From Puteibacter caeruleilacunae (lineage in GTDB: Bacteria; Bacteroidota; Bacteroidia; Bacteroidales; Prolixibacteraceae): 64,000 nt of DNA. Below, piece after piece: positions 27,002-60,590 of the stretch. Numbering within the stretch: the stretch's first letter is position 1; every line of letters begins with the position of its first letter. The notes below the pieces were generated by a model, which searched no databases, was not told the origin of the DNA, and was given only the letters and a program-made list of their open reading frames with translations. A program made the translations under genes and the position numbers. The DNA lies in NCBI GenBank assembly GCA_005217565.1, contig SJCO01000008.1:186001-250000 (forward strand). The letters are read 5' to 3'.

Positions 27002-27071
27002 ATCCCTTCGACAGCATTATCTGCATCAGGTTCATAGGGTATAATCTCAGCCAATTTATGGCACCCCTTAT
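27002..27071 (-). ncRNA. TPP riboswitch, proximal copy (THI element)
   Basis: Read on the minus strand, the segment contains all conserved TPP aptamer parts: GGGGTGCC, CTGAGA, CCCT, GAACCTGAT, an ATAATGCTG loop region and the closing GAAGGGA. It lies 48 nt before thiS. No separate terminator hairpin is seen between it and thiS, so control of translation initiation is possible. Confidence 0.95.
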
Positions 27072-27141
27072 CAATTTACCAATTTATTTTAATGATGTTC
27101 TACAGTGAATGTGTCGTCAGAATAGTGTAATTCTATCGTTA

Positions 27142-27215
27142 CTCCCTTCGGCAGTATTAACTGCATCAGGTTCGTAGGGTATGATCTCAGCCTGTTCTGT
27201 TAAGGCACCCCTGTA
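27142..27215 (-). ncRNA. TPP riboswitch, distal copy (THI element)
   Basis: A second complete aptamer in the same orientation, 70 nt upstream of the first: AGGGGTGCC, CTGAGA, CCCT, GAACCTGATGCAGTTAATACTG and GAAGGGAG. Both copies keep the pyrimidine-sensing and pyrophosphate-sensing consensus. Two aptamers in series sharpen or widen the response to thiamine pyrophosphate in known tandem cases. Confidence 0.95.
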
Positions 27216-27224
27216 AAACGATAA

Positions 27225-36850: not shown

Positions 36851-37378
36851 TTAGGTTGTGCTACAATAATCTTTTGCTTTAAGCACAAACGACTTAAATG
36901 CATCACCGTCGGCTGTAATTCCTTCAGCATCGAGTTTCATACCGCATTTTTCTGATACTTTAATAGAGCCAATATTTGTTGCAAACATACGCGTGATAAT
37001 CTTCTCTACATGAAGTTTGTTGAAGGCATAATCTATTAATCCTCTCGAAAGCTCAGTGCCCAACCCTTTATTCCAATAGCCTTTATTGATGATGTATCCC
37101 AGCTCTAAAATTGAAGGATTATCAAAGGAATTAAACAAACCAGCTTCACCAATGATTTCTCCTGATGATTTCTCAATAACAGTGAAGATCCCATAACCTT
37201 GTGGGTAATACTTCATGTTATCGGTATATTTTTCCCAAAGAAGATCGTGATCCCATTCCTTATCGGAATTAGGGATATGGTGCATTGTTTCCTGGCATTT
37301 GTATAAATCCAGTAGAATCTCCAAGTCGTCAGACTTGATTTCACGGACACTAAGTCGTTCGGTTGAGAATATGATCAT
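36851..37378 (-). CDS. GNAT-family N-acetyltransferase (RimJ/RimL-like)
   Basis: This is a 175-aa acetyl-CoA-dependent acetyltransferase. The N-terminus FSTERLSVREIKSDDLEILLDL is that of the Acetyltransf_3/RimJ-RimL group; the acetyl-CoA site lies in ELGYIINKGYWNKGLGTELSRGLIDYAF; and the C-terminal ATNIGSIKVSEKCGMKLD is also typical. It overlaps the end of the WG-repeat gene by 4 bp (ATGA), so it is translationally coupled to that protein. The acceptor substrate is unknown; amino acids, peptides and small molecules are all possible. Confidence 0.88.
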   Translation of the reverse strand: MIIFSTERLSVREIKSDDLEILLDLYKCQETMHHIPNSDKEWDHDLLWEKYTDNMKYYPQGYGIFTVIEKSSGEIIGEAGLFNSFDNPSILELGYIINKGYWNKGLGTELSRGLIDYAFNKLHVEKIITRMFATNIGSIKVSEKCGMKLDAEGITADGDAFKSFVLKAKDYCSTT

Positions 37379-38355
37379 AGTAGGCCTCTGGTGTGTTTCT
37401 TTTTTAGTTTTATTTCTGTTGTTTTTCCTGCTTTAACACAACGTGCAGTATGTTCCAATAGTTCAATTCTATCGTATTCACAAGGGCTAATAACGTCACC
37501 AGTGATATCGTAAAGTCCTACTTTCCCATTTTTAGTTACGATTGATAATAAACCCTTGCATTTTATTTCATCATATTCGCAAGGTATAATAACATTACCA
37601 ACCAGATCAATAGTTCCAACTCTTCCATTTTTGGAAACCAATCCTTGTAGATCTTTAAATACAATTTCATCATACTCGCAAGGCACGAGAACATTTCCAA
37701 CCAGATCAATAATGCCTACTTTACCATTCTTGGTTACCCATCCTCGTAGATCTTTAAATTCAATTTCATCATATTCACAAGGTACGAGAACATTTCCAAC
37801 CAGATCAATAATGCCTACTTTACCATTCTTGGTTACCCATCCTCGTAGATCTTTAAATTCAATTTCATCATATTCACAAGGTACGAGAACATTTCCAACT
37901 AGGTCTATAATACCTACTTTACCATTCTTGGTTACCCATCCTCGTAAATCTATAAATTCAATTTCATCATATTCGCAAGGCACGAGAACATTTCCAACTA
38001 GATCAATAATACCTACTTTCCCATTCTTGGCTACCCATCCTCTCATATCTTTGAACTCAATTTCATCGTACTCGCAAGGTACGAGAACATTTCCAACCAG
38101 GTCAATAATACCCACTTTCCCATTCTTGGCTACCCATCCTCTCATATCTTTGAACTCAATTTTATCGTATTCACAAGGCACAATGACATTGCCAACAATA
38201 TCAATAACGCCGACTTTGCCATTTTTTGAGACGAAGGCTTTATCATTATGGGTTTCAACCTTATCATATTGCTGAAGAAGTTTTTCCTTATCGAATTCCT
38301 GAGCAAAAGATGTATTAAGAACAATTAATAATAGAAGGAGTATAGAATATTTCAT
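37375..38355 (-). CDS. Secreted WG-repeat protein
   Basis: This is a 326-aa exported protein (signal peptide MKYSILLLLLIVLNTSFA). Apart from a short linker it consists of about nine WG-like repeats of 33 aa with consensus WVxKNGKVGIIDLVGNVLVPCEYDEIEFKDLRG, of the WG-repeat family (PF14903). The central copies are almost identical, including at DNA level (99-bp period). The repeats should stack as short beta-hairpins and probably act as a binding surface outside the membrane. No enzymatic motif is visible. It is followed by a GNAT gene with a 4-bp overlap. Confidence 0.88.
   Translation of the reverse strand: MKYSILLLLLIVLNTSFAQEFDKEKLLQQYDKVETHNDKAFVSKNGKVGVIDIVGNVIVPCEYDKIEFKDMRGWVAKNGKVGIIDLVGNVLVPCEYDEIEFKDMRGWVAKNGKVGIIDLVGNVLVPCEYDEIEFIDLRGWVTKNGKVGIIDLVGNVLVPCEYDEIEFKDLRGWVTKNGKVGIIDLVGNVLVPCEYDEIEFKDLRGWVTKNGKVGIIDLVGNVLVPCEYDEIVFKDLQGLVSKNGRVGTIDLVGNVIIPCEYDEIKCKGLLSIVTKNGKVGLYDITGDVISPCEYDRIELLEHTARCVKAGKTTEIKLKKKHTRGLL
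37571..38263. repeat. 99-bp tandem coding repeats
   Basis: Seven repeat starts are visible at about 37571, 37670, 37769, 37868, 37967, 38066 and 38165, each 99 bp apart; the inner ones (37670-38100) differ at only a few third positions. They encode the WG repeats of the minus-strand gene. Such identity makes copy number likely to vary through slippage or unequal recombination. Confidence 0.85.
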
Positions 38356-43411: not shown

Positions 43412-44161
43412 TTACTTCAATTTAAGTATTCGAAGTACATTCTCCTTTCGCTGTCTTGAAATACTGATGGTCGAGTCGTCAGTCATCTTGATGTATCCGC
43501 CATCTTGCTTTTCGTATGATCGGATATATTCCCTATTGATTAAATGTGATTGATGAACACGTATAAAACCACTTTCTCCTAAAAGCTCTTCATACTCCTT
43601 GAGCGTTTTCGATACCAATACATGATCTCCATTCGTTAGATAGATATGGGTATAGTTATTCTCTCCCTGACAACGGATGATCTCGTGAAGCTGCACAAAT
43701 AAAATCCGTTCAGCAGTAGGCAGCGCAATCTTTCGATCACTCCCTTGTCGTTGTTGGTTCTCAAGATAGTTCAGCAACTGCTCATTCGGACTTCCTTTTT
43801 GTTTTTCTATAGCCCTTGAAATAGCAGTCTTTAACTCCATGATATTTACTGGCTTTAGCAGATAATCAATGGCACTCATCCTGATGGCTTTAATGGCATA
43901 CTGATCATAGGCTGTGATGAAGATAACGTCAAAATCGGGCTGTGTAAAGTGGTCCAGTAAATCAAAACCTGTTCCGTCAGGCATGCGAATGTCAAGGAAT
44001 ACCAACTCTGGATTAAGCTGTTTAATGAGGTCTATCCCATCAAGGGCCCCATGTGCCATTCCAAGTACTTCAACCTCATTGCAATAGCGTTGTAAAAGGT
44101 TTTCAAGGTTTTTACAGTTGTTTATTTCATCGTCAATGATGACTGATTTTATTTTATTCAT
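43412..44161 (-). CDS. LytTR-family response regulator
   Basis: This is a 249-aa cytoplasmic transcriptional response regulator. The receiver domain (1-120) keeps the acidic pocket IIDDE, the phospho-acceptor D57 in LVFLDIRMPDG, FITAYD and the LKPV lysine. Residues about 150-248 are a LytTR DNA-binding domain (LFVQLHEIIRCQGENNYTHIYLTNG; FIRVHQSHLINREYI). Its ATG overlaps the stop of the adjacent sensor kinase by 4 bp (ATGA), so the two form a cognate pair. It is the only response regulator beside three homologous kinases and may serve all three. Confidence 0.95.
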   Translation of the reverse strand: MNKIKSVIIDDEINNCKNLENLLQRYCNEVEVLGMAHGALDGIDLIKQLNPELVFLDIRMPDGTGFDLLDHFTQPDFDVIFITAYDQYAIKAIRMSAIDYLLKPVNIMELKTAISRAIEKQKGSPNEQLLNYLENQQRQGSDRKIALPTAERILFVQLHEIIRCQGENNYTHIYLTNGDHVLVSKTLKEYEELLGESGFIRVHQSHLINREYIRSYEKQDGGYIKMTDDSTISISRQRKENVLRILKLK

Positions 44162-47115
44162 AGAGTTTGTTTTTCCAGTTCAAAGATAATCTCAGCAACG
44201 GTTCCAGCCTCATTTGGATCGATTTCTTTTGCATCTTTCAGATCAATGGAGATGTCATGTTTAAATTTCTCCATCATCAGATCTACCCTTCGCTGCGTAA
44301 TATGCAGTCCTTTACCATTTGATTGTTTGGAACTGCACTTTTGGTGCAGTCCCTTTCCATTATCAATAATCTGAATGCGTATATGATCCCCATTCAGTCG
44401 CGATACTTCTACCGCGATCTTTCCATTGGTGTTCATTCCGTTGATACCATGAACCACTGCGTTCTCAACGAATGGCTGCAATAGCATAGGTGGGATTTCA
44501 ATGTTGTATTGATCAATACCTTCTTCCAAATTGATGGTGTAGGTAAAGCGATGACGCAGTGCCTCCAACTCCAGATAAGTTGAGATGGTTTCTAGCTCAT
44601 CAGCAAGAGGAATAAGTTCTTCTTCAGACTGATTCAATACCTTCCGCATCAGACTTCCAAATTTAGAAAGGAAGATATTGGCCTTCTCATTTTCATCAGC
44701 ATTCACAAGGTGCTGAATAGAATTCATAGAGTTGAACAGGAAATGAGGATTCAATTGTGATCGTACCGCTTGCATCTCCAATTCCAACCGCTCCCTGCGC
44801 TCTTCTTCCTTTTTGCGAAGCTGTTTTAATCTAAGACGATTGATGAACAAAGTTAATCCCAGACTCACTGCAAATCCAAGGATGAAGTAGAGAATATCCA
44901 TTATCGATGTACCAGATTCTTGTCGATCTATCTTCGCTTTTAGAAATTCTATGATGTAATCTTCAAACGAGATGATAGGACTGCTGATATTAATTGCCTC
45001 TATTTTACCTTCAGGATTGATCAAATAGTTTTGTACTGAATTGGATGCCTCAAAGTATTTTTGATCAGTTTGATGGAAATTGAGATCATGAAACATTATA
45101 GCATTAATATGGTGACTATTAATGAAGCTATTTACAACCACATGAGGATCCGCACAAGAAACAATCAATTGAAAATCTTCACGATCAAGCTTCTCTGATA
45201 GTTTCGAATAACCAAACAATACCTCTTGATGTTCTTCAATATCCAAATTGCAATGAACTAAAAAGACCCACTTACCTCTAAACTCATCCAGAGATGTATG
45301 TTGTCCTGCTGCGTCGTTTATCGAAAAGTTGGGAGCAGTACTTCCAATGTTTAGCTTATGCTGTTTATTATACTGTTTTTGCAATAAGGAGGTATAGCTT
45401 GTTTGAGGATATTCTTCAACAAAGTCAGTGTATATATTGTTGTACGACTTCGGATCATTGGTCTTAAGTGCTTCTGATACAAAATACGCCATTGTATAAT
45501 ATCTGGATTCTCCTAAGAATGCATATTTTGCATGCATATAAGCCAGTTCAGAAAGATTCTTTTTATTCAAAGTTCTTTCATAAAGACCTTTAATTTTTTC
45601 TTTAGTGTATTGAGATATAAAGTCTCTAAAATCAATGGAAGATGAAGAGTCGAAGTTATTGATATCGGCTATAGCTTCTTTGAATAACTTTACGAAAAGA
45701 GTTTCATCAAAAGGCTTATAAGGATTTTGATTCTTCTTGTAATACTCCATTAGATGATTTAGATTGGCATATAACGCATTTGTTTGTAGATGTTTATATG
45801 CCCATATACTTAGTGAGTCTTTTGACGAATCAATCAGTTTCCATTTGGCGTGATTACTCTCCTTAAATTTCTTAATGACCTGATCTATAGGTGTATTTGT
45901 GCGGATTAGTAAAGGTAGATCTTGTAACTCCCTGTTGAGATTATTTTTGAATGCTCCTGGTCCACTGAACACAAGGTTTCCATTAGGTATTGATGAAATA
46001 CGGATATTGTCATAAGGTTCAAGCATGATATTGCATGATTGTTTAACCTGGTTTTTATCCGTATATGAATATAAAATCTCCGCAGGCTTGTCAATTTCAA
46101 CTGTTGTTATTGTATATTGAGCTCCATTGCTGTGCTTATGTGAGGGGAGTAGGTCCTTATCGAAGAAGTCTGAGGGGAATGAGATTTTTACAGCGTTAAG
46201 GTGCTGCATGTCAATGTTGCTATTTGTTACATATACATTGGACGTTGCTTTTAGGGTATCTATCTTTTCAATGATTAGTTTTCTCGATGCATTAGCTAAT
46301 TGAGAATTTTGGGGCTTATTCCTATCTGCAACAAACAGAATCTGTGAAGTATCCTGAACGTTTATACGAATAGTAAGTCGTGTGTCGGGATGAAGCAAAT
46401 AGTTAGCTTTTCTGTTCGCAAATTTAGGCGTTACTTGAGCACCAAAGGCTGTGGGGATTAGCGTAGAATCAGCCTTTGAATATTGGTAATTAGCAAGTGC
46501 GCTAATAGAAATAGGATCTTTGGAATGTTTATCGATTGAATAATGCTCCCATGCAGGAAATACATCATCAATTAGGGTAGGGTATTTCCAGGGATTACTT
46601 TCAAACTCGAGGAATTTAATGAAGATCTGCTGAATAAATTGAGCCAGTTCTTTGGGCTTAAAATATATTGATGAGTGAGCCAATACAAGGTCTTCGAAAG
46701 ACTTAAAGTTTGATTTATTAAGTATTTTGTTTGATTGCTCATCAGAAAGACTAATTGGCTCAATTTTCCCATTTCGTTTCATGATGAATTTGAATGGAAT
46801 ACCTGTGATAAGCTGGTCAGTTTTCGCTAATTTATCCTGATTAAAGTATTCAAGTTTAGTGTCTGTAATACTCCCTGTCACATCAGACCTTTTGATTCTG
46901 TAAAACTCGACCGAAAGTTGATAGTCTTTTGTAAAATCCCATAACACTTTAAACTTAAGCCAATAAATATGGGTACTTGGATAGCTCCCGTTTAATTTTG
47001 TTTCTGTCACTTTATAATAAAACTCATCCCCAACGTTGAGGTTGTATTTTAATATTTCCTTGCAGTTGCCTGAGAATACGGTAAGTAAAAGTATCAGTGT
47101 TATTATTTGTTTCAT
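44158..47115 (-). CDS. Sensor histidine kinase with periplasmic thioredoxin-like domain (copy 1)
   Basis: This is a 985-aa membrane sensor. Order: signal peptide (1-18), a region starting LKYNLNVGDEFYYKV (about 22-300), a beta-rich middle (about 340-390, with LVFSGPGAFKNNL), an alpha-helical region, a thioredoxin/AhpC-like domain (about 585-715, GSTAPNFSINDAAG ... GKWVFLVHCNL), one membrane segment (about 738-758), then a LytS-type kinase: QLNPHFLFNSMNSIQHL with H791 and an ATPase domain with IDNGKGLH. At the thioredoxin active site there is VHCNLDIEEHQE, so the CxxC is absent. The kinase part is nearly identical to those of the next two genes. Coupled to the regulator gene by a 4-bp overlap. 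Confidence 0.9.
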   Translation of the reverse strand: MKQIITLILLLTVFSGNCKEILKYNLNVGDEFYYKVTETKLNGSYPSTHIYWLKFKVLWDFTKDYQLSVEFYRIKRSDVTGSITDTKLEYFNQDKLAKTDQLITGIPFKFIMKRNGKIEPISLSDEQSNKILNKSNFKSFEDLVLAHSSIYFKPKELAQFIQQIFIKFLEFESNPWKYPTLIDDVFPAWEHYSIDKHSKDPISISALANYQYSKADSTLIPTAFGAQVTPKFANRKANYLLHPDTRLTIRINVQDTSQILFVADRNKPQNSQLANASRKLIIEKIDTLKATSNVYVTNSNIDMQHLNAVKISFPSDFFDKDLLPSHKHSNGAQYTITTVEIDKPAEILYSYTDKNQVKQSCNIMLEPYDNIRISSIPNGNLVFSGPGAFKNNLNRELQDLPLLIRTNTPIDQVIKKFKESNHAKWKLIDSSKDSLSIWAYKHLQTNALYANLNHLMEYYKKNQNPYKPFDETLFVKLFKEAIADINNFDSSSSIDFRDFISQYTKEKIKGLYERTLNKKNLSELAYMHAKYAFLGESRYYTMAYFVSEALKTNDPKSYNNIYTDFVEEYPQTSYTSLLQKQYNKQHKLNIGSTAPNFSINDAAGQHTSLDEFRGKWVFLVHCNLDIEEHQEVLFGYSKLSEKLDREDFQLIVSCADPHVVVNSFINSHHINAIMFHDLNFHQTDQKYFEASNSVQNYLINPEGKIEAINISSPIISFEDYIIEFLKAKIDRQESGTSIMDILYFILGFAVSLGLTLFINRLRLKQLRKKEEERRERLELEMQAVRSQLNPHFLFNSMNSIQHLVNADENEKANIFLSKFGSLMRKVLNQSEEELIPLADELETISTYLELEALRHRFTYTINLEEGIDQYNIEIPPMLLQPFVENAVVHGINGMNTNGKIAVEVSRLNGDHIRIQIIDNGKGLHQKCSSKQSNGKGLHITQRRVDLMMEKFKHDISIDLKDAKEIDPNEAGTVAEIIFELEKQTL

Positions 47116-47127
47116 GGGTGTTTGTTT

Positions 47128-50124
47128 TTATTGTTCCAGTTCAACAATGATTTCAGCTACAGTGCCTGTTGTTGTCGTAGTAGCTTCCGATTCTTTTGCA
47201 TCTTTCAGATCAATGGAGATGTCGTGTTTAAATTTCTCCATCATCAGATCTACTCTTCGCTGCGTAATATGTAGTCCTTTACCATTTGATTGTTTGGAAC
47301 TGCACTTATGGTGCAGCCCCTTTCCATTATCAATAATCTGAATGCGTATATGATCCCCATTCAGTCGCGATACTTCTACCGCGATCTTTCCATTTGTGTT
47401 CATTCCGCTGATACCATGAACCACTGCGTTTTCAACGAATGGCTGCAATAGCATAGGTGGGATTTCAATGTTGTACTGATCAATACCTTCCTCCACATTA
47501 ATAGCGTAGGTAAAGCGATGTCGTAGTGCCTCCAACTCCAGATAAGTTGAGATGGTTTCTAGCTCATCAGCAAGAGGAATAAGTTCTTCTTCAGATTGAT
47601 TTAAAACTTTACGCATCAAGCTGCCAAACTTAGAAAGAAAGATGTTGGCCTTCTCATTTTCATCAGCATTCACAAGGTGCTGAATAGAATTCATAGAGTT
47701 GAACAGGAAATGAGGATTCAATTGTGATCGTACCGCTTGCATCTCCAATTCCAACCGCTCCCTGCGCTCTTCCTCCTTTTTGCGAAGCTGTTTTAATCTA
47801 AGACGATTGATGAACAAAGTTAATCCCAGACTCAGTGCAAATCCAAGGATGAAGTAGAGAACCTGGATCCATGAAGATTCAGATTTCATCAACTTCTTTT
47901 GTGTTTCAATAGCGTCCTTAATATAGTCCGACACATAAGCTGCGTCATGTCTAAATACATTTCCATCTTCAGCATATTCAATATAACCACGAGGATTAAT
48001 CATATAGGTAGGGTTTTGTTTGATGGTAAGGTATTTGTCAAGATCTGTATTCTGGTCATAATTTGAGACAATTGTTCCTCTGATTTTTTCTTTTGAAACA
48101 AACGCTTTGATTTGTTTTGAAGGATTATTCAATGCAATAATTAATTCAAAATCTTCATCTCCTAGCTCTTTTTGCAAATTAGCAATCAGTTGCAGTTGCT
48201 CTTTATCCCACTTGTTGTCGAGATTCCCAAACACAAGGAGTACCCATTTCCCATAGGTGTTATACAGACTACATTCATCACCATTAATGTCGGTAACAAC
48301 AAAGTTAGGAGCACTGGCACCGACTTTTAATTGCTTAATTTTATTATGAATCAAATTAAGTAGTGCTGTATATTCCGAACCAGGATACTCTTTTATAAAG
48401 TCATTATATATCACGTCGACATTCTGCTTCCATGAATTCTCCAATGCTTGAAGAATATAGTAAGCTAAAGTGAAGTAACGAATATCTCCAGTAAGTTGCT
48501 CTTTCGCATAATAATATGATTTAGAGAAACTTGGTTGCAATCTGTTTGAGTATAATGGATTGTTTATTTTCTGCTTTTCTTGAATGTACTTAGTGATGAA
48601 CATTCGGAACTCATAGGATGAAATTGTTGAATATTGATCAATTTTAATATCTCCAAACAAGTTGTTAAACATTTCAGTATTTGGCTTTTGACGATTCTTG
48701 GCTGTGTAGTAGTTCAACAATTTATGCATCTCAGCATAGTAGATATCTGTTGTTAGATGATTATAAGCCCATTCAGATAGTTGATTCTTGTATGGTTCCA
48801 CAACCTCGAATTTTGTATCTAGATTGTCGAGATGAAACTCTTTAGCTCTCCTGAGATTAAGTCTTGAATTGATATCATGCCCCATCTTCCGAACCTTATC
48901 AGAAAGTTGACATTTCAAAGCTCCTTTCCCTGAGAACATTGCTACCTTATCGGTTCCAAAATCAAGAAAAATACTATCTCCTGGTTCTAGTAGTAGATTA
49001 TTGAAGCTATAGTTCATTTTCCATGGCTTGTTGTTATGTGATACTTCCATGGCTTTGGGGATTGATGTTTTGAACTTGAAGGTCTTGTTTTTATTTAATT
49101 TAGCCCTTTCATCAAACATTGTTTTCTCCATGTAGTTGTTCCACACAAAAAACTTGATGGAATCCAATTCTGAATCATGGCGTAGTTTGCCTGCTATTAT
49201 AACATTGGAATCTTTATCTGGCGATTCTATTCGCTTTATTTTATATAGATAGTGATTGGTAAAAGTATGTTTTCTTTGAGTTTTAGTGCGATATGTAGTA
49301 ATTGAGGTGTAATTAACTGCTTGTTTTATGGTTGCCTCTTGCATGATGTACATAGATGGATGAAGAATTATTTCTCCAGTCTGTTGTACATTGTTAGGCA
49401 TAAACGATTGATCTCGCGTAAATGGGATTATTATTGAATCAACGTTGTTATAATCTATTTTTGACGTGATCAATGGATTTTTAACAGAGTCGGATGACAA
49501 TGTATATGACTTTTCAAGAGGGGGATATAATATAGTTTTTGAGGATTTGGTGGTCCATTGTTGGGTGTTGTTTTTAGGGAACCGACAAAAGATCATTTCG
49601 AGGATTTCTTGTTGAATAGATGGCGAGAGAATTGAAATCTTTTTCGCTGCAACTCTTAACATCAAATTGTTCACTTTAGCCTTAGTGAGGATATCAGATT
49701 GTACCACTGGAGGAATTATTTGTGTAGAGATCTTTCCATCGAATCCAAGAGTGAAGTTTATATCGCGATTAAGCATCTGAAGATTTACTTTTTCCACAAA
49801 ATCATTAAAAGCGGCTAATTTGGAGATATCACCAGCTTTTAGATTAAATTGCTTTTTGTAATCAACAAGCTTCATAGCCATTTGATAATGATCTTTCTTC
49901 TTTGCTTTGACTATGATCTTAATACTTGTTTCCACGAATGGAGGAGCGTGATCTCCAATTTCTTTTGAGATTTTGTAAAAGAAGTCTTGTGTTACCTGAT
50001 GGCGTTTTACTTTATAATAAAACTCATCGCCAACGTTGAGGTTGTATTGTAATGTTTCTTTGCAGTTGCCTGAGAATGTGGTAAGCAATAGGATAAGGGT
50101 GAATAGTTGTTTGATGTATTTCAT
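47128..50124 (-). CDS. Sensor histidine kinase with periplasmic thioredoxin-like domain (copy 2)
   Basis: This is a 998-aa paralogue of copy 1 with the same domain order: signal peptide, LQYNLNVGDEFYYKV region, a DUF4369-like middle (SNVIIAGKLRHDSELDSIKFFVWNN; LLLEPGDSIFLDF; MFSGKGALKCQL), a helical region, a thioredoxin-like domain (ASAPNFVVTDINGDECS ... WVLLVFGNLDNKWD, no cysteine at the active site), a membrane segment and the LytS kinase with H805. The sensor half differs strongly from copy 1 but the last 250 residues are nearly identical. It ends 12 bp before copy 1, so the two are co-transcribed. Confidence 0.9.
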   Translation of the reverse strand: MKYIKQLFTLILLLTTFSGNCKETLQYNLNVGDEFYYKVKRHQVTQDFFYKISKEIGDHAPPFVETSIKIIVKAKKKDHYQMAMKLVDYKKQFNLKAGDISKLAAFNDFVEKVNLQMLNRDINFTLGFDGKISTQIIPPVVQSDILTKAKVNNLMLRVAAKKISILSPSIQQEILEMIFCRFPKNNTQQWTTKSSKTILYPPLEKSYTLSSDSVKNPLITSKIDYNNVDSIIIPFTRDQSFMPNNVQQTGEIILHPSMYIMQEATIKQAVNYTSITTYRTKTQRKHTFTNHYLYKIKRIESPDKDSNVIIAGKLRHDSELDSIKFFVWNNYMEKTMFDERAKLNKNKTFKFKTSIPKAMEVSHNNKPWKMNYSFNNLLLEPGDSIFLDFGTDKVAMFSGKGALKCQLSDKVRKMGHDINSRLNLRRAKEFHLDNLDTKFEVVEPYKNQLSEWAYNHLTTDIYYAEMHKLLNYYTAKNRQKPNTEMFNNLFGDIKIDQYSTISSYEFRMFITKYIQEKQKINNPLYSNRLQPSFSKSYYYAKEQLTGDIRYFTLAYYILQALENSWKQNVDVIYNDFIKEYPGSEYTALLNLIHNKIKQLKVGASAPNFVVTDINGDECSLYNTYGKWVLLVFGNLDNKWDKEQLQLIANLQKELGDEDFELIIALNNPSKQIKAFVSKEKIRGTIVSNYDQNTDLDKYLTIKQNPTYMINPRGYIEYAEDGNVFRHDAAYVSDYIKDAIETQKKLMKSESSWIQVLYFILGFALSLGLTLFINRLRLKQLRKKEEERRERLELEMQAVRSQLNPHFLFNSMNSIQHLVNADENEKANIFLSKFGSLMRKVLNQSEEELIPLADELETISTYLELEALRHRFTYAINVEEGIDQYNIEIPPMLLQPFVENAVVHGISGMNTNGKIAVEVSRLNGDHIRIQIIDNGKGLHHKCSSKQSNGKGLHITQRRVDLMMEKFKHDISIDLKDAKESEATTTTTGTVAEIIVELEQ

Positions 50125-50236
50125 GAGTGTCTGTTTTTATTAAGGGATAAAGGTTATACTGCAAAGATGCTGATTCAAATCTGAACTCCTCTGGTTAAAT
50201 TAGGAATTGGTAGCTGTACATGAGAATCTGGTAAAT

Positions 50237-53191
50237 TTATTGTTCCAGTTCAACAATGATTTCAGCTATGGTACCTGTTGTTGTCGTAGTAGCTTCCGAT
50301 TCTTTTGCATCTTTCAGATCAATGGAGATGTCGTGTTTAAATTTCTCCATCATCAGATCTACCCTTCGCTGCGTAATATGCAGTCCTTTACCATTTGATT
50401 GTTTGGAACTGCACTTATGGTGCAGTCCCTTTCCATTATCAATAATTTGAATGCGTATATGATCCCCATTCAGTCGCGATACTTCTACCGCGATCTTACC
50501 ATTGGTGTTCATTCCGTTGATACCATGAACCACAGCGTTCTCAACGAATGGCTGCAATAGCATTGGAGGGATTTCAATGTTGTACTGATCAATACCTTCC
50601 TCCACATTAATAGCGTAGGTAAAGCGATGTCGTAGTGCCTCCAACTCCAGATAAGTTGAGATGGTTTCTAGCTCATCAGCAAGAGGAATAAGTTCTTCTT
50701 CCGACTGATTTAATACCTTACGCATCAGACTGCCAAACTTAGAAAGGAAGATGTTGGCCTTCTCATTTTCATCAGCATTCACAAGGTGCTGAATAGAATT
50801 CATAGAGTTGAACAGGAAATGAGGATTCAATTGTGATCGTACCGCTTGCATCTCCAATTCCAACCGCTCCCTTCTTTCTCCTTCCTTCTTGCGTAGTCTG
50901 CTCATTCGCAAACGATAAAACAAATACGTTGCTCCAAGTCCTAATGAAATACCAAGGATGAAGAAGAGAACAACCCAAATATCAATGCCTGCTTCTTCAT
51001 TTTCAGCTCTATCTTTAATGTCCTTTTGGATATAAGAAATAAATGAAATAATAGAATGTTCAAGAGGCGTGATACTACCTGAAAACTCAACTTCTCCATC
51101 AGGATTTATTAAAAAATGTTGATCACTACTTTCAAGCTTGTACTTCTTTGCACCGTCATTTTTCCAACCATGATTATCAAGCAATACACCATCAATAGCA
51201 TGCTCTTTAAGGAAGTCTTTTGTGGCTTGGGGATCATCGTTACTAAATGCAGCGATGAATTGAAAATGATTCTCAGGGAGCTCTTGAGCCATTTTTTGAT
51301 ATGCCAATAAGACTTTCTGATAACGCTCAAGCCTTAGGTCGCAGAATGTTAGGAAAATCCATTTGTCTTTATAATCACTCAATCGAACCTCATTACCAGA
51401 TAAATCTTTCAGTGTAAAGTCTGGGGCAATTGATCCTTCATCAAGGTTAACACTATTGTCGTACATTTTCTTTAACGACTGTGCCAGCTCTGTTCCCGGA
51501 TAACGTTGTTGGAAATCATGGTATATATCTTCAGCTCTTGATTTGTCAGCACCTTTCAGAGCATCAAACACATAAAAAGCTAAAGCGTAGTATTCCAATT
51601 TCCCATTAAAATATATCTTAGAGAGCATGTATCCCTCATTGGCTGGATGATGTCGGTTGTGTTTGTTATTATGAAGGATTAGTAGCTGTCGGAAAATATA
51701 AGACTCCATAAAGAATCGAAAGTTCTGGGATGTATAATCATTATAGCCCTCGAAGCTTATATCGTCAAAAAGCTCATGAAACATTTCCTTATTGACTTCT
51801 CCACCATTTGAGTTATAGTAATAGGAGAGTAAGCTTCGTTGTTGCGAAAAGAAGGCATTTGTTTTTAAATTATCATAAGCCCAATCACTTAATGAATCTT
51901 TGTGCTCTTCAATAATTGACAATCTCTCTTCAATAGCTTGAGAAGCCTTCGATAATGCTTCCTTAGGAGTCATCGACTCGTTAATGCCAGCATTAATATG
52001 ACTTAGTTTATGATACAAATTACATTTATAGGCACCTTTACCTGAAAAGTAAATATTCTGATTATCATCTACCGATAGGAAGATACTATCTCCTGGTTCA
52101 AGCAACATCTGATTATGACTGCTAACATAACCCATGTCTTTGATAGTATGTGTTAACTCAATAGGGCGCGAAAGAGTCGACTTAATCTTAAATTGCTTGT
52201 TAGAATCGATATGAGCCATTGCTCTAAATACATCTCTGTCTGCACATTGGTTCCAAAGGAAGAATTGTATTGAGTCGCCTGGTGCTCTTTTAGAAACTTC
52301 TCCTGCAATAATTATAGATGAATTCTCGGTGGGATCAACTTTCTGAATAACAGTATTACTCTTTGCTGATTGCTGCATTTTTGATTTAGCATTAGTGGTA
52401 GATCTGGAAATAAAGCTACTCTTATTGGCCCCGTTAGCCTTCATGCTGTGAATTAATCCTGTCTGCTTATCAATAGAATATGTCGCATTATAGCTAATTT
52501 TTACTGGCATATTAGAATACATTGGGGCATTTGTAGTGAGTGTATCATCTGTTTCGTATTGGGTGTTCTGAAGAATACTAATGCTATTATCTTTAGAATC
52601 AAGAGTGTAGTCTGTCGAAATAGGAATTTGTTGATTAGGGATAGTGTCGGTTCTTGTCCATTGGGATACTTTGTTTTTAGGGAATTGAATAAATACACCT
52701 CTAAGCGTATTGTTTAAGATCATGGGAGAGATAAATGCAACATTATTGACTTCCATTTTGTCGAATATGCCTTTTGCACCAGCCTTTAGTAGGATTCTAT
52801 CTTTTAATTGTTTGGAAATCTTTGATTTAGTTATTGTTCCATCGAAGCTTAAGTGAAAGCTGAATTTTTCTCCTACAGTCGCTTTATCCACCTTATGACT
52901 AATACGTTGACTAGCAGTGATGCCTTTTGTGTCAAATGATTCCCAAGGTGAAGATTTTACAAGTCGCAATAATTGGTACTGAATTGTATAACCTTCAGCG
53001 TCTTTATCCAAAACATTGAATTTTATCCAACGTTTATCAGTTGAGGTACTGGATCCTTCTTTTGTATTACTTTCCAGTTTATAGGTAAACTCATCCCCAA
53101 CGTTGAGGTTGTAGCGTAGTTTTTCTTTGCTTATACCTGTCAATGAGGCGAGCAAAAGGATTAAAATTAGTAGTTGTTTCATGTGTCTCAT
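50237..53191 (-). CDS. Sensor histidine kinase with periplasmic thioredoxin-like domain (copy 3)
   Basis: This is a 984-aa third paralogue. It shares the start LRYNLNVGDEFTYKL, a DUF4369-like middle (NSSIIIAGEVSKRAPGDSIQFFLWNQ; LLEPGDSIFLSV), a thioredoxin-like domain (GSIAPDFTLKDLSGNEVRLSDYKDKWIFLTFCDLRLERY, CxxC absent) and the kinase with H791. The membrane segment and linker (GISLGLGATYLFYRLRMSRLRKKEG) differ from copies 1 and 2, whereas from ERRERLELEMQAVRSQ on they are almost the same. It is the first of the three; the 112-bp gap to copy 2 shows no terminator. It may also start at M4. Confidence 0.9.
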   Translation of the reverse strand: MRHMKQLLILILLLASLTGISKEKLRYNLNVGDEFTYKLESNTKEGSSTSTDKRWIKFNVLDKDAEGYTIQYQLLRLVKSSPWESFDTKGITASQRISHKVDKATVGEKFSFHLSFDGTITKSKISKQLKDRILLKAGAKGIFDKMEVNNVAFISPMILNNTLRGVFIQFPKNKVSQWTRTDTIPNQQIPISTDYTLDSKDNSISILQNTQYETDDTLTTNAPMYSNMPVKISYNATYSIDKQTGLIHSMKANGANKSSFISRSTTNAKSKMQQSAKSNTVIQKVDPTENSSIIIAGEVSKRAPGDSIQFFLWNQCADRDVFRAMAHIDSNKQFKIKSTLSRPIELTHTIKDMGYVSSHNQMLLEPGDSIFLSVDDNQNIYFSGKGAYKCNLYHKLSHINAGINESMTPKEALSKASQAIEERLSIIEEHKDSLSDWAYDNLKTNAFFSQQRSLLSYYYNSNGGEVNKEMFHELFDDISFEGYNDYTSQNFRFFMESYIFRQLLILHNNKHNRHHPANEGYMLSKIYFNGKLEYYALAFYVFDALKGADKSRAEDIYHDFQQRYPGTELAQSLKKMYDNSVNLDEGSIAPDFTLKDLSGNEVRLSDYKDKWIFLTFCDLRLERYQKVLLAYQKMAQELPENHFQFIAAFSNDDPQATKDFLKEHAIDGVLLDNHGWKNDGAKKYKLESSDQHFLINPDGEVEFSGSITPLEHSIISFISYIQKDIKDRAENEEAGIDIWVVLFFILGISLGLGATYLFYRLRMSRLRKKEGERRERLELEMQAVRSQLNPHFLFNSMNSIQHLVNADENEKANIFLSKFGSLMRKVLNQSEEELIPLADELETISTYLELEALRHRFTYAINVEEGIDQYNIEIPPMLLQPFVENAVVHGINGMNTNGKIAVEVSRLNGDHIRIQIIDNGKGLHHKCSSKQSNGKGLHITQRRVDLMMEKFKHDISIDLKDAKESEATTTTTGTIAEIIVELEQ

Positions 53192-53373: not shown

Positions 53374-53595
53374 ATGAAAAGCAAGATGCACAGGTTCGTG
53401 ATAGACATACCAGATCATAAATTAAAATTCTTTTTGGAGATTATAAAGCAACTTGGACTAAAGAAAGTTAAGCGATTATCAAAAGATCAAAAAGAGTTTG
53501 TTGATGGAATTCATGATTCATTGAAACAGGTCGAGAAACATCAACAGGGAAGAACAGACCTGCAATCAGCAAGAGATTTTTTAAATGAGTTATAA
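53374..53595 (+). CDS. Probable antitoxin of a RelE/ParE-type pair
   Basis: This is a 73-aa, strongly charged, mostly helical protein: MHRFVIDIPDHKLKFFLEII, then KRLSKDQKEFVDGIHDSLKQVEKHQQGR and LQSARDFLNEL. It looks like an N-terminal beta strand plus helices as in small type II antitoxins, although I do not recognise a named family. The toxin gene overlaps its end by 11 bp, the usual antitoxin-first order. A good promoter lies just upstream. Confidence 0.75.
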   Translation: MKSKMHRFVIDIPDHKLKFFLEIIKQLGLKKVKRLSKDQKEFVDGIHDSLKQVEKHQQGRTDLQSARDFLNEL

Positions 53596-53917
53596 AGTTT
53601 TTGTTACAGCTGATTTTAAAAAGCAGGCCAAACGTATTTCAAAAAAACATCCATCCTTAAAGTCTGACCTAAGCAAGTTAATTGATTCCTTAGAAGTTAA
53701 CCCAATTCAAGGCACAGCTCTAAAACACGATTGCTATAAAATACGTATGGCAATTAGTTCCAAAGGAAAAGGAAAACGAGGAGGTGCTCGTATTATCTCC
53801 TGTGTTAAAATTATTAATGAAGTTGTTTACTTAGTATCTATCTACGATAAATCAAGAAAAGAAAGCATTTCAGATTCAGAACTTAATGAACTTTTGTTTG
53901 TCGCAGGACTTCTGTGA
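53585..53917 (+). CDS. RelE/ParE-family toxin
   Basis: This is a 110-aa toxin of the RelE/ParE superfamily. Visible motifs are the N-terminal strand YKVFVTADFKKQAKRISKKHPSLKSDL, the loop LEVNPIQGTALKHDCYKIRMAI, and the core strands RIISCVKIINEVVYLVSIYDKS. The lysine-rich loop SKGKGKRGGARI is common in the family. Whether it cleaves mRNA on ribosomes (RelE) or inhibits gyrase (ParE) cannot be decided. It starts within the last codons of the antitoxin gene, so expression is coupled. Confidence 0.85.
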   Translation: MSYKVFVTADFKKQAKRISKKHPSLKSDLSKLIDSLEVNPIQGTALKHDCYKIRMAISSKGKGKRGGARIISCVKIINEVVYLVSIYDKSRKESISDSELNELLFVAGLL

Positions 53918-53931
53918 TCATATCCATAATC

Positions 53932-56346
53932 TTACTCATATCTCAATGCATCCACAGGATTTCTTGTTGCAGCTCTCCAGCTCTGCCAGCTTACCGTTAA
54001 TAGGGCAATACCCAGCGCTAGTACACCAGCCAAAGCAAAGATCCACCAGCTTAATTCAGTCTTGTAGGCAAAGTTCTCAAGCCATTTATTCATGGCATAA
54101 TATGCAATAGGGCAGGCGAGGACAAAAGCAATGGCCACCCATTTGATGAAGTCGCGGTTCAGCATCGCCAGAATTTCTGAAATCTTGGCTCCGTTTACTT
54201 TTCTGATGCCAATTTCTTTGGTACGCTGCTCAGCAACAAATGTAGCTAGTGCAAGAAGTCCCAGGCAGGTAATTAGTATCCCTAAAACTGCAAATACTGT
54301 AGTTATCTTTTTGGTTCGTTTCTCAAAAGCATATAAGCGTCCAAAATCTTCATCAAAAAATGAATATACAAAAGGTTGTCCGCCAGCATATTTATTCCAT
54401 GTTTTTTCTATGTTTTTCAAGTTCTCTTGTATATTCCCCGATATACGAACACTTAAGAACTGGCCACTAGACTTTAACGCACGATCATTGTTAATCAATA
54501 CCAACGGACTCATTTCCTGATGTAAGGAGTGGAGATGAAAGTCCTTTATTACTCCAATAATGGTCAACGCAGTTTCATCAGTCTTTTTACCTTTATATAA
54601 TTTTTTACCTATCGGATCATCTATATTTAAATCTTTCAATGCTGATTCAATTAGCACTATCGACTTGGAATTTGTAGGATTTCCTTCTTCGAAGAAACGA
54701 CCTTGTACAAGCTCAATTTCATATGTCTTCAAAAAGTTATTATCTACCCAAAGTTGATTCATCCATTTCGCATCGTTGGCTAATTCATTAAAAAATAGAT
54801 TTGCAGAAGAACTTCGTCCAGGAACCTGAATCGAGTTACTTACTTCTAAAATACCCGATTGTTCGCGCAATTCACTAATAAGTGCCGACTTTTGATTCCA
54901 TAGGTAATGTGCATTTTTTACGATTATCAGGTTCTCTTTGTTAAAGCCTAATTCTTTGCTTTGTAGAAAATTAAGTTGCTTGTTGATTAAAAAGGTACCT
55001 GAAAAAAGAATAATGGTTACAATTAATTGAAATACAACTAAACCACTGCGTAAGTAGCTATGCGAACCTTCAGATTTATTTATCCCTTTTAGAACCTTCA
55101 ATGGACTAAAGGATGACATAATGAATGCGGGGTAACTACCTGCAACTATTCCAATGACAACTCCAAAGACAAGCAGTAATGGAATTGTGCTAAGATTATC
55201 GGTATAAGAAAATACAAGTCGCTTATCAATTAAATTACTAATGGTGGGGAGCAATACTTTGATTAATATCAGTGCAAGTACTAATGCGATAAGTGTAACA
55301 AAAATTGATTCTGATAAAAACTGCAATACAAGATGCTTACGGTTTGATCCTAATGATTTTTTCAATCCTACTTCTTTTGCCCGGTTTACCGATCTTGCAG
55401 TGGACATGTTCATGTAGTTAATACAGGCAATTATTAATATAGAAACAGCAATTATCGAAAATAATACCATATAAATGCTATTCACTGGCAATTCCAAATC
55501 GCCTACAACTTCTTTATCGAAATGTATTTTGTGTAAGGACTGCGTATAGTACTTATATTTGTTCCCTTTTGCTGTGAATTCCTCAAGCGATGTGCCTTTA
55601 TGCTGCATCAAATACTGTCCAACATGATTGCTCACAATAGCTTCAAGTTTTGTATCAAAAGCCTGACTTGAAGCTCCCTCCTTTAATAGCACATAAGTAT
55701 AGAGCATATTGTTAATCCAGTTGGAACTGGTGTTGTATGGCCGACTTTTTATTGATGCAATAAAATCGGGTTTTAAATGCGAGTTTTCAGGAAAATCCTT
55801 TATCACCCCGGTAACGGTCCAGTCGTAGTTATACTTTCTGGTAAGGGTTTTACCGAGTGGATTTTCATCTCCGAAGTAACGTTTCGCTGTTGACTCAGTT
55901 AAAACCACAGTATAAGGTTTCACCAAAGCCTCACTGGGACCTCCTTGAATAAACGAACTTGTAAAAACATTGAAGAAGTTATCATCTGCAAAACACCACT
56001 TAGTTTCGTTGAATACTTTGTCGTTATACTGCATTACAGGCTTCCAATAAGTCGTCACACGAACTGCCTCTTCAACTTCGGGTATTTCATCTAGCATGGC
56101 GTTCTTCAAGGGAGCACTCGATTTAGCCCAATTATTATTGTCGTTGTTCCCAGTAGAAAGCAAATTCACACGGTAAATCCTATGCGAGTTTTCATGAAAT
56201 TTATCGTAGCTTAATTCCGATTGAACATACAGCATTATAAATACACATGCCATAATTCCAATTGTTAAACCAACAATATTAATTACAGAATAGAACTTGT
56301 TTTTAACTAAGTTTCTAAATGCAGATTGGGCGTAGAATTTTATCAT
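53932..56346 (-). CDS. MacB/FtsX-like ABC transporter permease (copy A)
   Basis: This is an 804-aa inner-membrane permease with the MacB-like arrangement: an N-terminal segment (NIVGLTIGIMACVFIMLYV), a MacB_PCD periplasmic domain (to about 270), three segments with a FtsX core (AKEVGLKKSLGSNRKHLVLQFLSE), a fourth segment, a second periplasmic domain and a last FtsX unit (RTKEIGIRKVNGAKISEILAML). Proteins with two FtsX halves are typical of Bacteroidota; no ATPase is encoded nearby. The last 115 residues are nearly identical to copy B. It runs convergently to the toxin gene. Peptide, lipid or drug export is possible. Confidence 0.92.
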   Translation of the reverse strand: MIKFYAQSAFRNLVKNKFYSVINIVGLTIGIMACVFIMLYVQSELSYDKFHENSHRIYRVNLLSTGNNDNNNWAKSSAPLKNAMLDEIPEVEEAVRVTTYWKPVMQYNDKVFNETKWCFADDNFFNVFTSSFIQGGPSEALVKPYTVVLTESTAKRYFGDENPLGKTLTRKYNYDWTVTGVIKDFPENSHLKPDFIASIKSRPYNTSSNWINNMLYTYVLLKEGASSQAFDTKLEAIVSNHVGQYLMQHKGTSLEEFTAKGNKYKYYTQSLHKIHFDKEVVGDLELPVNSIYMVLFSIIAVSILIIACINYMNMSTARSVNRAKEVGLKKSLGSNRKHLVLQFLSESIFVTLIALVLALILIKVLLPTISNLIDKRLVFSYTDNLSTIPLLLVFGVVIGIVAGSYPAFIMSSFSPLKVLKGINKSEGSHSYLRSGLVVFQLIVTIILFSGTFLINKQLNFLQSKELGFNKENLIIVKNAHYLWNQKSALISELREQSGILEVSNSIQVPGRSSSANLFFNELANDAKWMNQLWVDNNFLKTYEIELVQGRFFEEGNPTNSKSIVLIESALKDLNIDDPIGKKLYKGKKTDETALTIIGVIKDFHLHSLHQEMSPLVLINNDRALKSSGQFLSVRISGNIQENLKNIEKTWNKYAGGQPFVYSFFDEDFGRLYAFEKRTKKITTVFAVLGILITCLGLLALATFVAEQRTKEIGIRKVNGAKISEILAMLNRDFIKWVAIAFVLACPIAYYAMNKWLENFAYKTELSWWIFALAGVLALGIALLTVSWQSWRAATRNPVDALRYE

Positions 56347-56405: not shown

Positions 56406-58766
56406 TTACTCATACCTCAATGCTTCCACAGGATTTCTTGTAGCAGCTCTCCAGCTCTGCCAACTTACCGTTAATAGGGCAATACCCAGCGCCAGTACAC
56501 CAGCCAAAGCAAATATCCACCAGCTTAATTCTGTCTTGTAGGCAAAGTTCTCAAGCCATTTGTTCATGGCGTAATATGCAATCGGACAGGCGAGCACAAA
56601 AGCAATGGCTACCCATTTAATGAAATCTTTGTTCAGCATTGCCAGAATTTCTGAAATCTTTGCTCCGTTTACTTTCCTAATACCAATTTCCTTGGTGCGC
56701 TGCTCGCTAATAAAATGTACCATCGCAAATAAACCTAGCGATGTCAATAGCAGGGCAATAAATGTAAACCACGATATAATACTTCTTGTCTTCTCTTCAG
56801 CACGATATAAAGCATCATAGGTGTCATCAAGAAAGTGGAAATCAAATGGTTGATCAGGGTAGTTTGCTGCCCAGTAGCTTTCAATCGTCTTGATTGCGTT
56901 GTTTCTATCCCCACCAATTTTAAACATCATTACTCCAGAATTACTTGCCCACAGCGGTTTTGTATATAAACAAGGATCAATATGTTGCGCCAGCGATTTC
57001 GTATTTAAATTACGGGTAACACCTTTTATGATGTACTCCTTACCAAAACTTATAGAATACAAACTTCTGCCAACATAAGGAGCTTCAAATCCAAGTAGTT
57101 CTGCAGCTTTCTCATTTATAATACAATAGTTCAGGGAGTCACTTGTCGTTGTGCGAAACCTGCTTCCCTCTATAAATTCAATATCAGCAAGATCGAAGTA
57201 ATCTTCATCTATCTGTATCCACTCAAAATTTAGGTCGTACTTATCCTTTGCGGCACCAACGGTCGATCCATTTGCCCATTCAGTCGGTAATGCAGCCCGG
57301 AAGGCAATATGCTTAATGGAAGGATTACGAAGCAGTTCACTTTTCAAATTCTTTTGCTCATCCCAGTTTTGTAACTTTCCCTCAGTAAAAACATAGAGCG
57401 TATTCTCTTTGTTAAAACCAAGGTTTTTATTTTGCAGATAATCAACTTGCTTAAAGATCGTTATCATGGCAAAAATCAAGACTGTAGTGATGACAAACTG
57501 TGTGGTTACCAATATCTTCTGATATTTAGCCTTGGAGTTCTCTAAACGTGAACCTTTAATCACTTTTACAATGTTCAATTGATATAAGAACATGGCTGGT
57601 AATACTCCCGCAAGAAGTGTTGAGCCCACAATTAAGATGATGCTAATGAATGCAAAACCAAGACTAAGGTATTTCACCTTTATTACGGAACCCGATAAGG
57701 CATTAAAAAACGGGAGTACCCCTTCGCATAACAGCAAAGAAATAGCAAATGAAAGTAAAACATAAAGCAATACTTCTACAAGATATTCTTTGGTAATCGT
57801 TGCTTTATTGGCTCCATTGCTAACCTTTATCCCTATTTCTTTTTTACGCTTTAATGCTGAAGAAAGAAACAGATTGGTAAAGTTTACACAAGCAATAAAC
57901 AAAATGAGGAACGCAACCACTGATAGGATGTAAATATTTCGTTTACTCGTTTTTTTAGAATTATCCCATTTAAAGTCGTTATCAAAAGGAATATTTTTTA
58001 CTGGTTGAAGAATAAAGCTTAGGTCGTAAGCTTTCATCCTTGGAATCCGCGTTTTTACAATAGATGTTAATTTATCATTCAACTCCTGAATGTTGGCATT
58101 TTCAATGGTCTGAAAATAGGTTATCGCAAAATCTCCACCCCATTCGTTATTGTGCCAATTATGACCAAGACTTAAAGTAGAGACGACATACTGAAATTGT
58201 AAATGTGAATTGGAGGGAACGTTCTCAACAACAGCAGCAACTGTATAAACCTTTCCGTTCATCTGTAGTGTTTTACCCATAGCTGATTGGTCTCCAAAAC
58301 ACTTTTGAGCCAATGTTTCATCAATAACAATGTTGCTTTTATCTTGTAAAATATTGGAAAGATCTCCTACAATTGCGCGAAAAGGGAACATATTAAAGAA
58401 ACCAGGATCTGCAGCAAATCCATTTGATCTAAAAAACTTATTGTCGTTGGTTTTTATAAGGTTACCATCTTTCTTCTTGTCTATCCTAATAGTCTTCTTT
58501 ATTTCAGGAATTGAGTGGAGTGCTTCAGCTGCTAATCCGGGGAAACTACCTGCCGATTTAATGTGCTCACCATTAACACTACCATCCATATTCACTCGAT
58601 ATAGGCTACCTTTTTCAGGGATAAAACTATCGTAGTTTAATTCGTGAGTCACCCAGAAAAAAAGCAATATACTGCAGGTAAATCCCAATGTCAGACCTAA
58701 AATGTTAAGTGCAGTTGTCCATTTATGTTTGAAGGCATTTCGGAAGATTGACTTTAGATGGTTCAT
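56406..58766 (-). CDS. MacB/FtsX-like ABC transporter permease (copy B)
   Basis: This is a 786-aa paralogue of copy A and probably in the same transcript (59-bp gap). The first segment is LNILGLTLGFTCSILLFFWV, followed by a MacB_PCD domain with LYRVNMDGSVNGEHIKS, an FtsX block (KRKKEIGIKVSNGANKATITKEYLVEVLLY), a second periplasmic domain and the final FtsX block (RTKEIGIRKVNGAKISEILAML). Outside the C-terminal 115 residues it differs widely from copy A. A decayed third copy lies just upstream at 58804-58893. Confidence 0.92.
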   Translation of the reverse strand: MNHLKSIFRNAFKHKWTTALNILGLTLGFTCSILLFFWVTHELNYDSFIPEKGSLYRVNMDGSVNGEHIKSAGSFPGLAAEALHSIPEIKKTIRIDKKKDGNLIKTNDNKFFRSNGFAADPGFFNMFPFRAIVGDLSNILQDKSNIVIDETLAQKCFGDQSAMGKTLQMNGKVYTVAAVVENVPSNSHLQFQYVVSTLSLGHNWHNNEWGGDFAITYFQTIENANIQELNDKLTSIVKTRIPRMKAYDLSFILQPVKNIPFDNDFKWDNSKKTSKRNIYILSVVAFLILFIACVNFTNLFLSSALKRKKEIGIKVSNGANKATITKEYLVEVLLYVLLSFAISLLLCEGVLPFFNALSGSVIKVKYLSLGFAFISIILIVGSTLLAGVLPAMFLYQLNIVKVIKGSRLENSKAKYQKILVTTQFVITTVLIFAMITIFKQVDYLQNKNLGFNKENTLYVFTEGKLQNWDEQKNLKSELLRNPSIKHIAFRAALPTEWANGSTVGAAKDKYDLNFEWIQIDEDYFDLADIEFIEGSRFRTTTSDSLNYCIINEKAAELLGFEAPYVGRSLYSISFGKEYIIKGVTRNLNTKSLAQHIDPCLYTKPLWASNSGVMMFKIGGDRNNAIKTIESYWAANYPDQPFDFHFLDDTYDALYRAEEKTRSIISWFTFIALLLTSLGLFAMVHFISEQRTKEIGIRKVNGAKISEILAMLNKDFIKWVAIAFVLACPIAYYAMNKWLENFAYKTELSWWIFALAGVLALGIALLTVSWQSWRAATRNPVEALRYE

Positions 58767-60589: not shown

Positions 60590-60590
60590 G

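Follow-up and report, generated by a model that had tools for sequence, protein, structure and literature searches.

The window analyzed here is a stretch of 64,000 nucleotides from Puteibacter caeruleilacunae, and its minus strand carries at positions 43412-53191 a run of three kinase genes (K1, K2, and K3) followed by one LytTR response regulator gene. K1, the first gene of the array (50237-53191, 984 amino acids), encodes a periplasmic-sensor LytS-type histidine kinase; K2 (47128-50124, 998 amino acids) and K3 (44158-47115, 985 amino acids, with a C-terminal tail of its own) follow on the same strand. The sole regulator of the run (43412-44161, minus strand, 249 amino acids) contains both a receiver (Response_reg) and a LytTR domain. 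K3 and the regulator gene overlap by 4 bp (44158-44161), while gaps of 12 bp and 112 bp separate K2 from K3 and K1 from K2, respectively. An earlier note, made from the letters of the window, had described three consecutive giant kinases and a single regulator overlapping the last of them by 4 bp, and open reading frame (ORF) calls and Pfam searches bore this out; the lengths it gave (985-998) were right in order of size, the actual range being 984-998 residues. The common order of signal peptide, NLNVGDEF stretch, thioredoxin-like domain, and LytS kinase was also confirmed by Pfam and by the sequence, which has a signal-peptide-like start in all three proteins; the one membrane helix ahead of the kinase was located by inspecting the sequence rather than with a predictor. 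Pfam matches in each kinase comprised AhpC-TSA (E values of 1.4e-12 to 1.5e-8) as well as His_kinase (PF06580; 4e-22 to 1.4e-21) and HATPase_c (about 1e-6), with curated cut-offs exceeded. All three proteins contain the motifs NPHF, ENAVVHG, DNGKG, and NGKGL, which we take to be the phospho-acceptor histidine and N/G-box motifs. Among the NCBIfam models, BtsR came closest to the regulator, with a score under the cut-off of that model. A promoter scan returned fewer sites than were found in shuffled sequence, and no regulon was found for the regulator.

The two halves of the kinase genes showed very different degrees of relatedness, a feature that the earlier note had overlooked and that we find more surprising than the layout itself. 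In blastn comparisons, the final 671-736 bp of the three genes were 91-96% identical and the initial 107-114 bp were 74-86% identical; between these conserved ends, a single 26-bp match was obtained, in one of the three pairs. The homogenized transmitter tracts (blastn and repeat families; all minus strand) lie at 50300-50971 in K1 (91-93% DNA identity to K3 and K2), at 47191-47861 in K2, and at 44224-44894 in K3 (95.7% to K2). The conserved 5′ end of K1, which encodes the signal peptide and the NLNVGDEF stretch, was delimited by repeat families at 53076-53183, and similar 5′ ends were found on the same strand at 50009-50116 (K2) and 47009-47116 (K3). Codon alignments gave 26-28% amino acid identity for the sensor halves, with synonymous divergences (dS) of 2.8 and 2.5 and a third pair that was not computable, against 89.5-94.6% identity and dS of 0.25-0.32 for the membrane helix plus kinase. 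The two regimes meet no more than about 30 residues from the membrane helix; K2/K3 change over at the helix, and the pairs with K1 do so just past it. The three proteins are invariant around the phospho-acceptor motif, from 17 residues ahead of it to about 70 beyond it, and the last ~20 residues of K3, whose gene overlaps that of the regulator, are unlike those of K1 and K2.

This contrast extends to silent positions. Fourfold-degenerate sites agreed at 21/54, 18/54, and 17/53 positions in the sensor halves of the three pairs and at 61/70, 61/69, and 60/69 positions in the kinase halves (P ≤ 1.6e-8), which corresponds to identities of 0.32-0.39 and 0.87-0.88. The silent sites of the kinase are thus younger than those of the sensor, so that either the kinase half was copied between the genes or the sensors were replaced. 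Had selection on the protein alone been at work, silent sites would be of equal age in both halves; since they are not, another cause is required. Collapse during assembly was rejected as the source of the identity, as the copies differ at 4-9% of their kinase bases and the window is interior to a contig no shorter than 250 kb. No array orthologous to K1-K3 was found among the matches listed, and for the window array itself the case for concerted evolution comes from the synonymous contrast.

The genome of the window encodes 30 LytS-type kinases. For 25 of them, a same-strand LytTR gene lies no more than 2.6 kb away, one such gene being common to two kinases. No LytTR gene is that close to K1 or K2, to the two upstream copies of a second array (array B), or to a kinase on contig C35, for which the nearest one is about 3 kb off. 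The specificity of a kinase for its regulator resides in the dimerization and phospho-acceptor part. As this part is invariant among K1-K3, whatever K3 phosphorylates should also be phosphorylated by K1 and K2, to judge from sequence. The many-to-one switch that the earlier note had proposed is, in this respect, well supported by inference from the near-identical kinase domains and from the position of K1 and K2, both lacking a LytTR gene within 2.6 kb.

We then considered how widespread the architecture is, using a profile (A3) made from the thioredoxin-to-kinase part. At an E value of 1e-20, hits occurred in 136 of the 140 genomes searched from the family (best 10 or fewer candidates per genome), many of the matches listed spanning the kinase part only. 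At 1e-75, and with the best three candidates per genome, hits came from 18 of the 393 genomes searched in the order and 2 of the 395 in the phylum, own genome included in both counts. In the other genome searches the best 9 or fewer, up to 21, or all candidates per genome were scored, and array counts are to be read as "at least." Working from top-scoring matches within the family and order, we chose by hand 70 large kinases (at least 700 amino acids), a set that is not a random sample; two further loci were chosen because their matches adjoined each other. The thioredoxin-region profile also matched 66 of the 70. The next downstream gene on the same strand encodes a LytTR regulator for 53 of the large kinases, and for 8 more the regulator lies a few genes on. 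Another kinase comes first in four cases (K1, K2, and one each in genomes G041 and G139), and five kinases, two of them from array B, run out without a regulator, at contig ends where inspected. Among these relatives arrays recur, but the usual arrangement is one kinase directly ahead of its regulator. At two of these loci (L142 and L143), two small genes resembling a RES-Xre toxin-antitoxin pair sit between kinase and regulator; at another (L117), a BlaI-like gene and an M56 peptidase gene do so.

Array B of the same genome was obtained by joining contigs C101, C190, and C47 through exact 95-base overlaps, C190 having the same 95 bases at both ends. Read through in this way, it comprises three large kinases (1063, about 1035, and 999 amino acids) followed by one 248-amino-acid LytTR regulator; the number of kinases per regulator is at least three and that of C190 units at least one. 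In the unjoined stretches, kinase halves were 89.7-99.5% identical (dS of 0.16-0.43) and sensors 33-49%. One C-terminal tail is common to the two upstream copies, and the copy adjacent to the regulator (B3) carries a different one.

Arrays in other genomes allowed the two halves to be compared in trees. In G041 and G139, two kinases are followed by one regulator, which is preceded by two and one other genes, respectively. Kinase pieces shorter than 700 amino acids (L084, split into 759 and 232 amino acids; L134; the 373-amino-acid kinase of L151; L153; and L155) and the tetratricopeptide repeat (TPR) kinase L080 were dropped before trees were built, L135 was excluded from the sensor tree, and L077 and L078 entered the analysis truncated at their contig ends. 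The kinase tree (70 rows) joined the copies within G041 (support of 99) and within G139 (99), the three of the window (98), and the three of array B (99), while the neighboring pairs with own regulators at L116 and L119 did not join. The sensor tree (69 rows) joined the second sensors of G041 and G139 to each other (98) and placed the first ones among single-copy relatives; the three window sensors formed one group (92) and the array B sensors another (99). Approximately unbiased (AU) tests on 21 rows agreed with this discordance: kinase data rejected the cross-genome pairing (P = 7.8e-6), and sensor data rejected the within-genome pairings (P = 2.5e-5 and 4.9e-41). Sensor identities across the two genomes were only 0.38 and 0.34 for like copies and 0.27-0.31 for other combinations, and kinase identities were 0.96 and 1.00 within a genome and 0.76-0.78 between genomes.

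A further test came from G061 and G143, in which tandem LytS kinases with TPR sensors precede one 249-amino-acid regulator; beyond it lies another LytTR-like frame (117-120 amino acids). Orthologous sensors were 0.63 and 0.52 identical across the genomes versus 0.20 and 0.23 within them, and kinases were 0.77 and 0.66 identical within the genomes and 0.68 and 0.60 between orthologs. In AU tests, kinase data rejected both orthologue pairings (P = 0.016 and 0.006), and sensor data rejected the genome pairing (P = 3e-5). The fourfold contrast was significant in G061 (kinase 44/53 versus sensor 11/24, P = 0.0013). Paralogs within a genome that are closer in one segment than orthologs between genomes were thus found in G041/G139 and, more weakly, in G061/G143, which represent an independent but weaker case of the pattern.

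For comparison with a background, all 2346 pairs from 69 rows were considered, 8 of which share a regulator in an array. Kinase identity was 0.89-0.99 in seven of these eight, compared to at most 0.79-0.82 in background pairs of similar sensor identity; the eighth tied with the background at 0.90. In all eight, fourfold sites differed sharply between the halves (P ≤ 3.3e-6). Ten close between-genome pairs, picked by hand, served as controls for this test, and seven of them showed no significant difference (P of 0.051 to 0.86). Own-regulator neighbors at L116 and L119 had kinases that were 52% and 38% identical, with dS high or incomputable, and fourfold agreement at L119 was similar in both halves (sensor 10/42 versus kinase 9/29, P = 0.34).

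We interpret the locus as a many-to-one switch in which gene conversion keeps the transmitters alike as the sensors diverge, and assign this reading a probability of roughly 0.7. Three other explanations were weighed. Strong purifying selection on the kinase combined with fast adaptive divergence of the sensor, and no recombination, would account for the few residue differences among the kinase halves of K1-K3. It would require extreme codon constraint in the kinase half, of which the seven concordant between-genome pairs show no sign, and it is at odds with the fourfold contrast in eight of eight shared-regulator pairs and with the discordant sensor and kinase trees; we therefore rejected it as highly improbable. 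Alternatively, whole genes may have been duplicated recently and their sensor halves then replaced by sensors imported through recombination, the kinases being alike because they are young. Such replacement has a plausible precedent at single-copy loci: between L124 and L128 in different genomes, kinase (0.92), regulator (0.94), and two flanking genes (0.80 and 0.91) are well conserved and the sensor is only 0.42 identical (fourfold sites 29/83 in the sensor versus 52/56 in the kinase), a third flanking gene of like length having no match. L130/L133 is similar (sensor 0.46, kinase 0.90), and a fourfold contrast is also present in L142/L147. As L124/L128 looks like a replacement of the sensor only, recombination near the membrane junction seems to be active at single loci too. 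In the arrays, however, the window sensors and the array B sensors each form a group of their own, as expected of divergence in place and not of random imports, and the sensors of G061 and G143 are clear orthologs across genomes while their kinases are not paired in this way. We consider wholesale replacement unlikely. At L124/L128, L130/L133, and L142/L147 themselves, the sensor was either replaced or split anciently, and trans-species sensor alleles at one locus are possible.

A neutral habit of conversion among neighboring repeats in this genome, unlinked to the shared regulator, appears somewhat unlikely. Two adjacent MacB/FtsX permeases of 804 and 786 amino acids (53932-56346 and 56406-58766) are 19-42% identical per 50-residue block, save for their last ~100 codons (90-98%), and the corresponding 3′ tracts (53932-54231 and 56406-56705) show 92% DNA identity over 300 bp in a conversion-like manner. 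Permeases resembling them were found near such kinases at two further loci (L119 and L153). The 5′ ends of the kinase genes are also alike in the window array and array B, and tandem short LytS kinases of the same genome that share one regulator (L175) are only 25% identical. Against such a habit, four arrays in three genomes have their tract edge close to the membrane helix, and the copies adjacent to the regulator (K3 and B3) retain their own tails. Conversion tied to the shared regulator remains our preferred reading, and several results weigh against it. The permease tract indicates that conversion may be a general habit of neighboring paralogs here, and the L175 pair demonstrates that regulator sharing is not always accompanied by homogenization. 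Among the between-genome controls, 3 of 10 pairs carry old sensors on young kinases, so that part of the pattern could stem from sensor replacement. The own-regulator pairs at L116 and L119 span different kinase lineages and are thus weak controls, and at L116 fourfold agreement is slightly higher in the kinase (sensor 11/45 versus kinase 19/41, P = 0.028). The groups compared in the AU tests were picked with the quick trees already in view, and the sensor tree has long branches. In the small kinase tree of the TPR arrays, the G143 copies join (86/98) and the G061 copies form no pair; the fourfold contrast of G143 (20/41 versus 6/19, P = 0.17) was not significant. Finally, 16 of 40 LytTR genes in the window genome have no kinase within 2.6 kb, so that the kinases could have a second partner, which qualifies the many-to-one claim.

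K1-K3 couple different periplasmic sensors to practically the same transmitter and are predicted to phosphorylate the one regulator at 43412-44161. The uniform part comprises the dimerization/phospho-acceptor and ATPase parts, plus the membrane helix in K2/K3. Homogenization would proceed by gene conversion, or by equivalent recombination between neighboring copies, and would be kept by selection, possibly because all copies must fit one regulator and a drifting copy would lose it. Heterodimers of K1-K3 may also form.

The N-terminal 740 residues, for which the earlier note had recommended database searches, were then examined by sequence and structure comparison, which pointed to a weak likeness to DUF6263, a predicted lipid-transfer-like barrel, and a predicted ResA/TlpA fold. 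A model of the 740-residue sensor (predicted local distance difference test [pLDDT] of 69.5, predicted template modeling score [pTM] of 0.43) comprised a barrel, a small beta domain, a helical part, and a thioredoxin fold. The thioredoxin fold is a ResA/TlpA-like domain at residues 582-729 of K1 (51005-51448, minus strand), recognized by Pfam, sequence, and predicted fold. It matched ResA/TlpA by sequence with an E value of 9e-14, and its predicted fold, over about 140 residues, resembled 3gl3 (Z score of 19.1), 3fw2 from Bacteroides thetaiotaomicron (18.0), and ResA (about 17). In contrast to the ResA/TlpA thiol-disulfide oxidoreductases, which share this predicted fold, the domain is fused to a kinase and lacks the CxxC motif in K1, K2, and K3; only two of the 70 relatives (L083 and L156) keep a CGPC at the active-site position, the CxxC of L148 lying elsewhere.

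The N-terminal barrel domain of K1 (residues 25-288; 52328-53119, minus strand) was assigned from weak homology and predicted fold. No Pfam model, DUF6263 included, matched the sensor N termini of K1-K3 at an E value of 0.1. In tblastn searches, sensor residues 4-138 were 25-27% identical to three Aquimarina loci and one metagenome-assembled genome (E values of 4e-7 to 7e-6, valid within the candidate set only). One Aquimarina-type match was scanned and proved to be DUF6263 (PF19777; E value of 1e-37), a stand-alone protein of secreted type. Matches of the whole-sensor model to microsomal triglyceride transfer protein (MTP) and ApoB were disregarded, since the root mean square deviation (RMSD) exceeded 20, and a separate N-terminal model (pLDDT of 72.9, pTM of 0.71) was used instead. 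This predicted barrel was most similar to lipovitellin (1lsh; Z score of 13.1 over 210 residues, RMSD of 5.0), ApoB (12.2), and MTP (11.4), with 10-11% identity to lipid-transfer barrels. The type VI secretion cargo complex 9jg8 likewise contains a matching chain (11.7), and lower scores were obtained for porins (at most 8.9), LolA3 (7.9), and RseB, a stress sensor (7.2). Judging from the predicted fold, the sensor may read lipids or lipoproteins, and each copy might sense a different envelope-related ligand, possibly hydrophobic, via the barrel and the noncatalytic thioredoxin-fold domain. A more ambitious joint reading would combine a combinatorial receptor set, a cassette system at the membrane junction, and a barrel akin to the lipid-transfer barrels of animals. 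With identical dimerization parts, the three kinases could pair in every combination, with themselves and with one another, so that as many as six receptors, differing in their paired sensors, would act on one regulator; recombination at the junction would fix the engine while sensors diversify or swap, similar to a variable-receptor repertoire; and the barrel would be a bacterial relative of the animal ones that reads envelope lipids or lipoproteins. Taken together, this combination is doubtful.

We regard the locus as a real and recurrent variation on a familiar theme, a LytS/LytTR switch of the many-to-one type whose transmitters evolve in concert. LytS/LytTR systems, with a PF06580 kinase and a PF04397 regulator, include BtsS/BtsR, YpdA/YpdB, and LytS/LytR. 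Kinase and regulator domains, gene order, and LytTR output are the same in the window array, which differs in the large single-pass periplasmic sensor, the three kinases per regulator, and the homogenized transmitter halves. Several sensors also feed one downstream response in the quorum-sensing kinases LuxN/LuxQ/CqsS and in the KinA-E phosphorelay; to our knowledge, however, their transmitters are not near-identical and they do not form a tandem array. The earlier note knew of no described system with this sensor architecture. Indeed, no NCBIfam model scored above its cut-off for K1-K3, and keyword searches of the open-access literature found no description of the architecture and no report of gene conversion among kinase paralogs acting on one regulator; the 70 relatives, though, show that it is not unique to this genome. 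The closest published parallels are chemoreceptors rather than kinases: Tlp2/3/4 of Campylobacter jejuni and PctA/B/C of Pseudomonas have identical or >96% identical signaling domains on sensors of ~30% or <56% identity (PMC9769880, PMC6974571). For PctA/B/C, this identity is ascribed to strict selection (PMC6974571), and conversion of the signaling domain is not described in the excerpts of the two reports used here (PMC9769880, PMC6974571). A myxobacterial survey raises gene conversion as a possibility only (PMC4603909). Interfaces of duplicated two-component kinases are described as diverging and becoming insulated (PMC9208753), and cross talk as sometimes favored (PMC9765234). Contrary to the usual insulation account, the duplicated kinases described here diverge in sensing and stay together in signaling, and do so repeatedly. 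They offer a natural case, testable by sequence, for several envelope signals converging on one regulator, for heterodimeric sensor kinases, and for new sensors arising through recombination where the protein meets the membrane. They also draw attention to a family of large sensors with a possible lipid-binding barrel and a thioredoxin-fold domain whose active site is mostly lost.

Other features of the window were recorded in passing. Between the kinase array and the permeases lies a RelE-like toxin gene (53585-53917; Pfam), and a short open frame just upstream of it, seen by eye, may be the antitoxin. At 59414-63251, a Schlafen AlbA_2-type protein stands beside a TrlF family AAA-like ATPase (NF045780, above cut-off), and the two may form a defense pair. 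Two thiamine pyrophosphate (TPP) riboswitch aptamers are arranged in tandem on the minus strand (26985-27078 and 27126-27222), and a WG-repeat protein is encoded at 37375-38355 by DNA made of similar repeats at a 99-bp offset.

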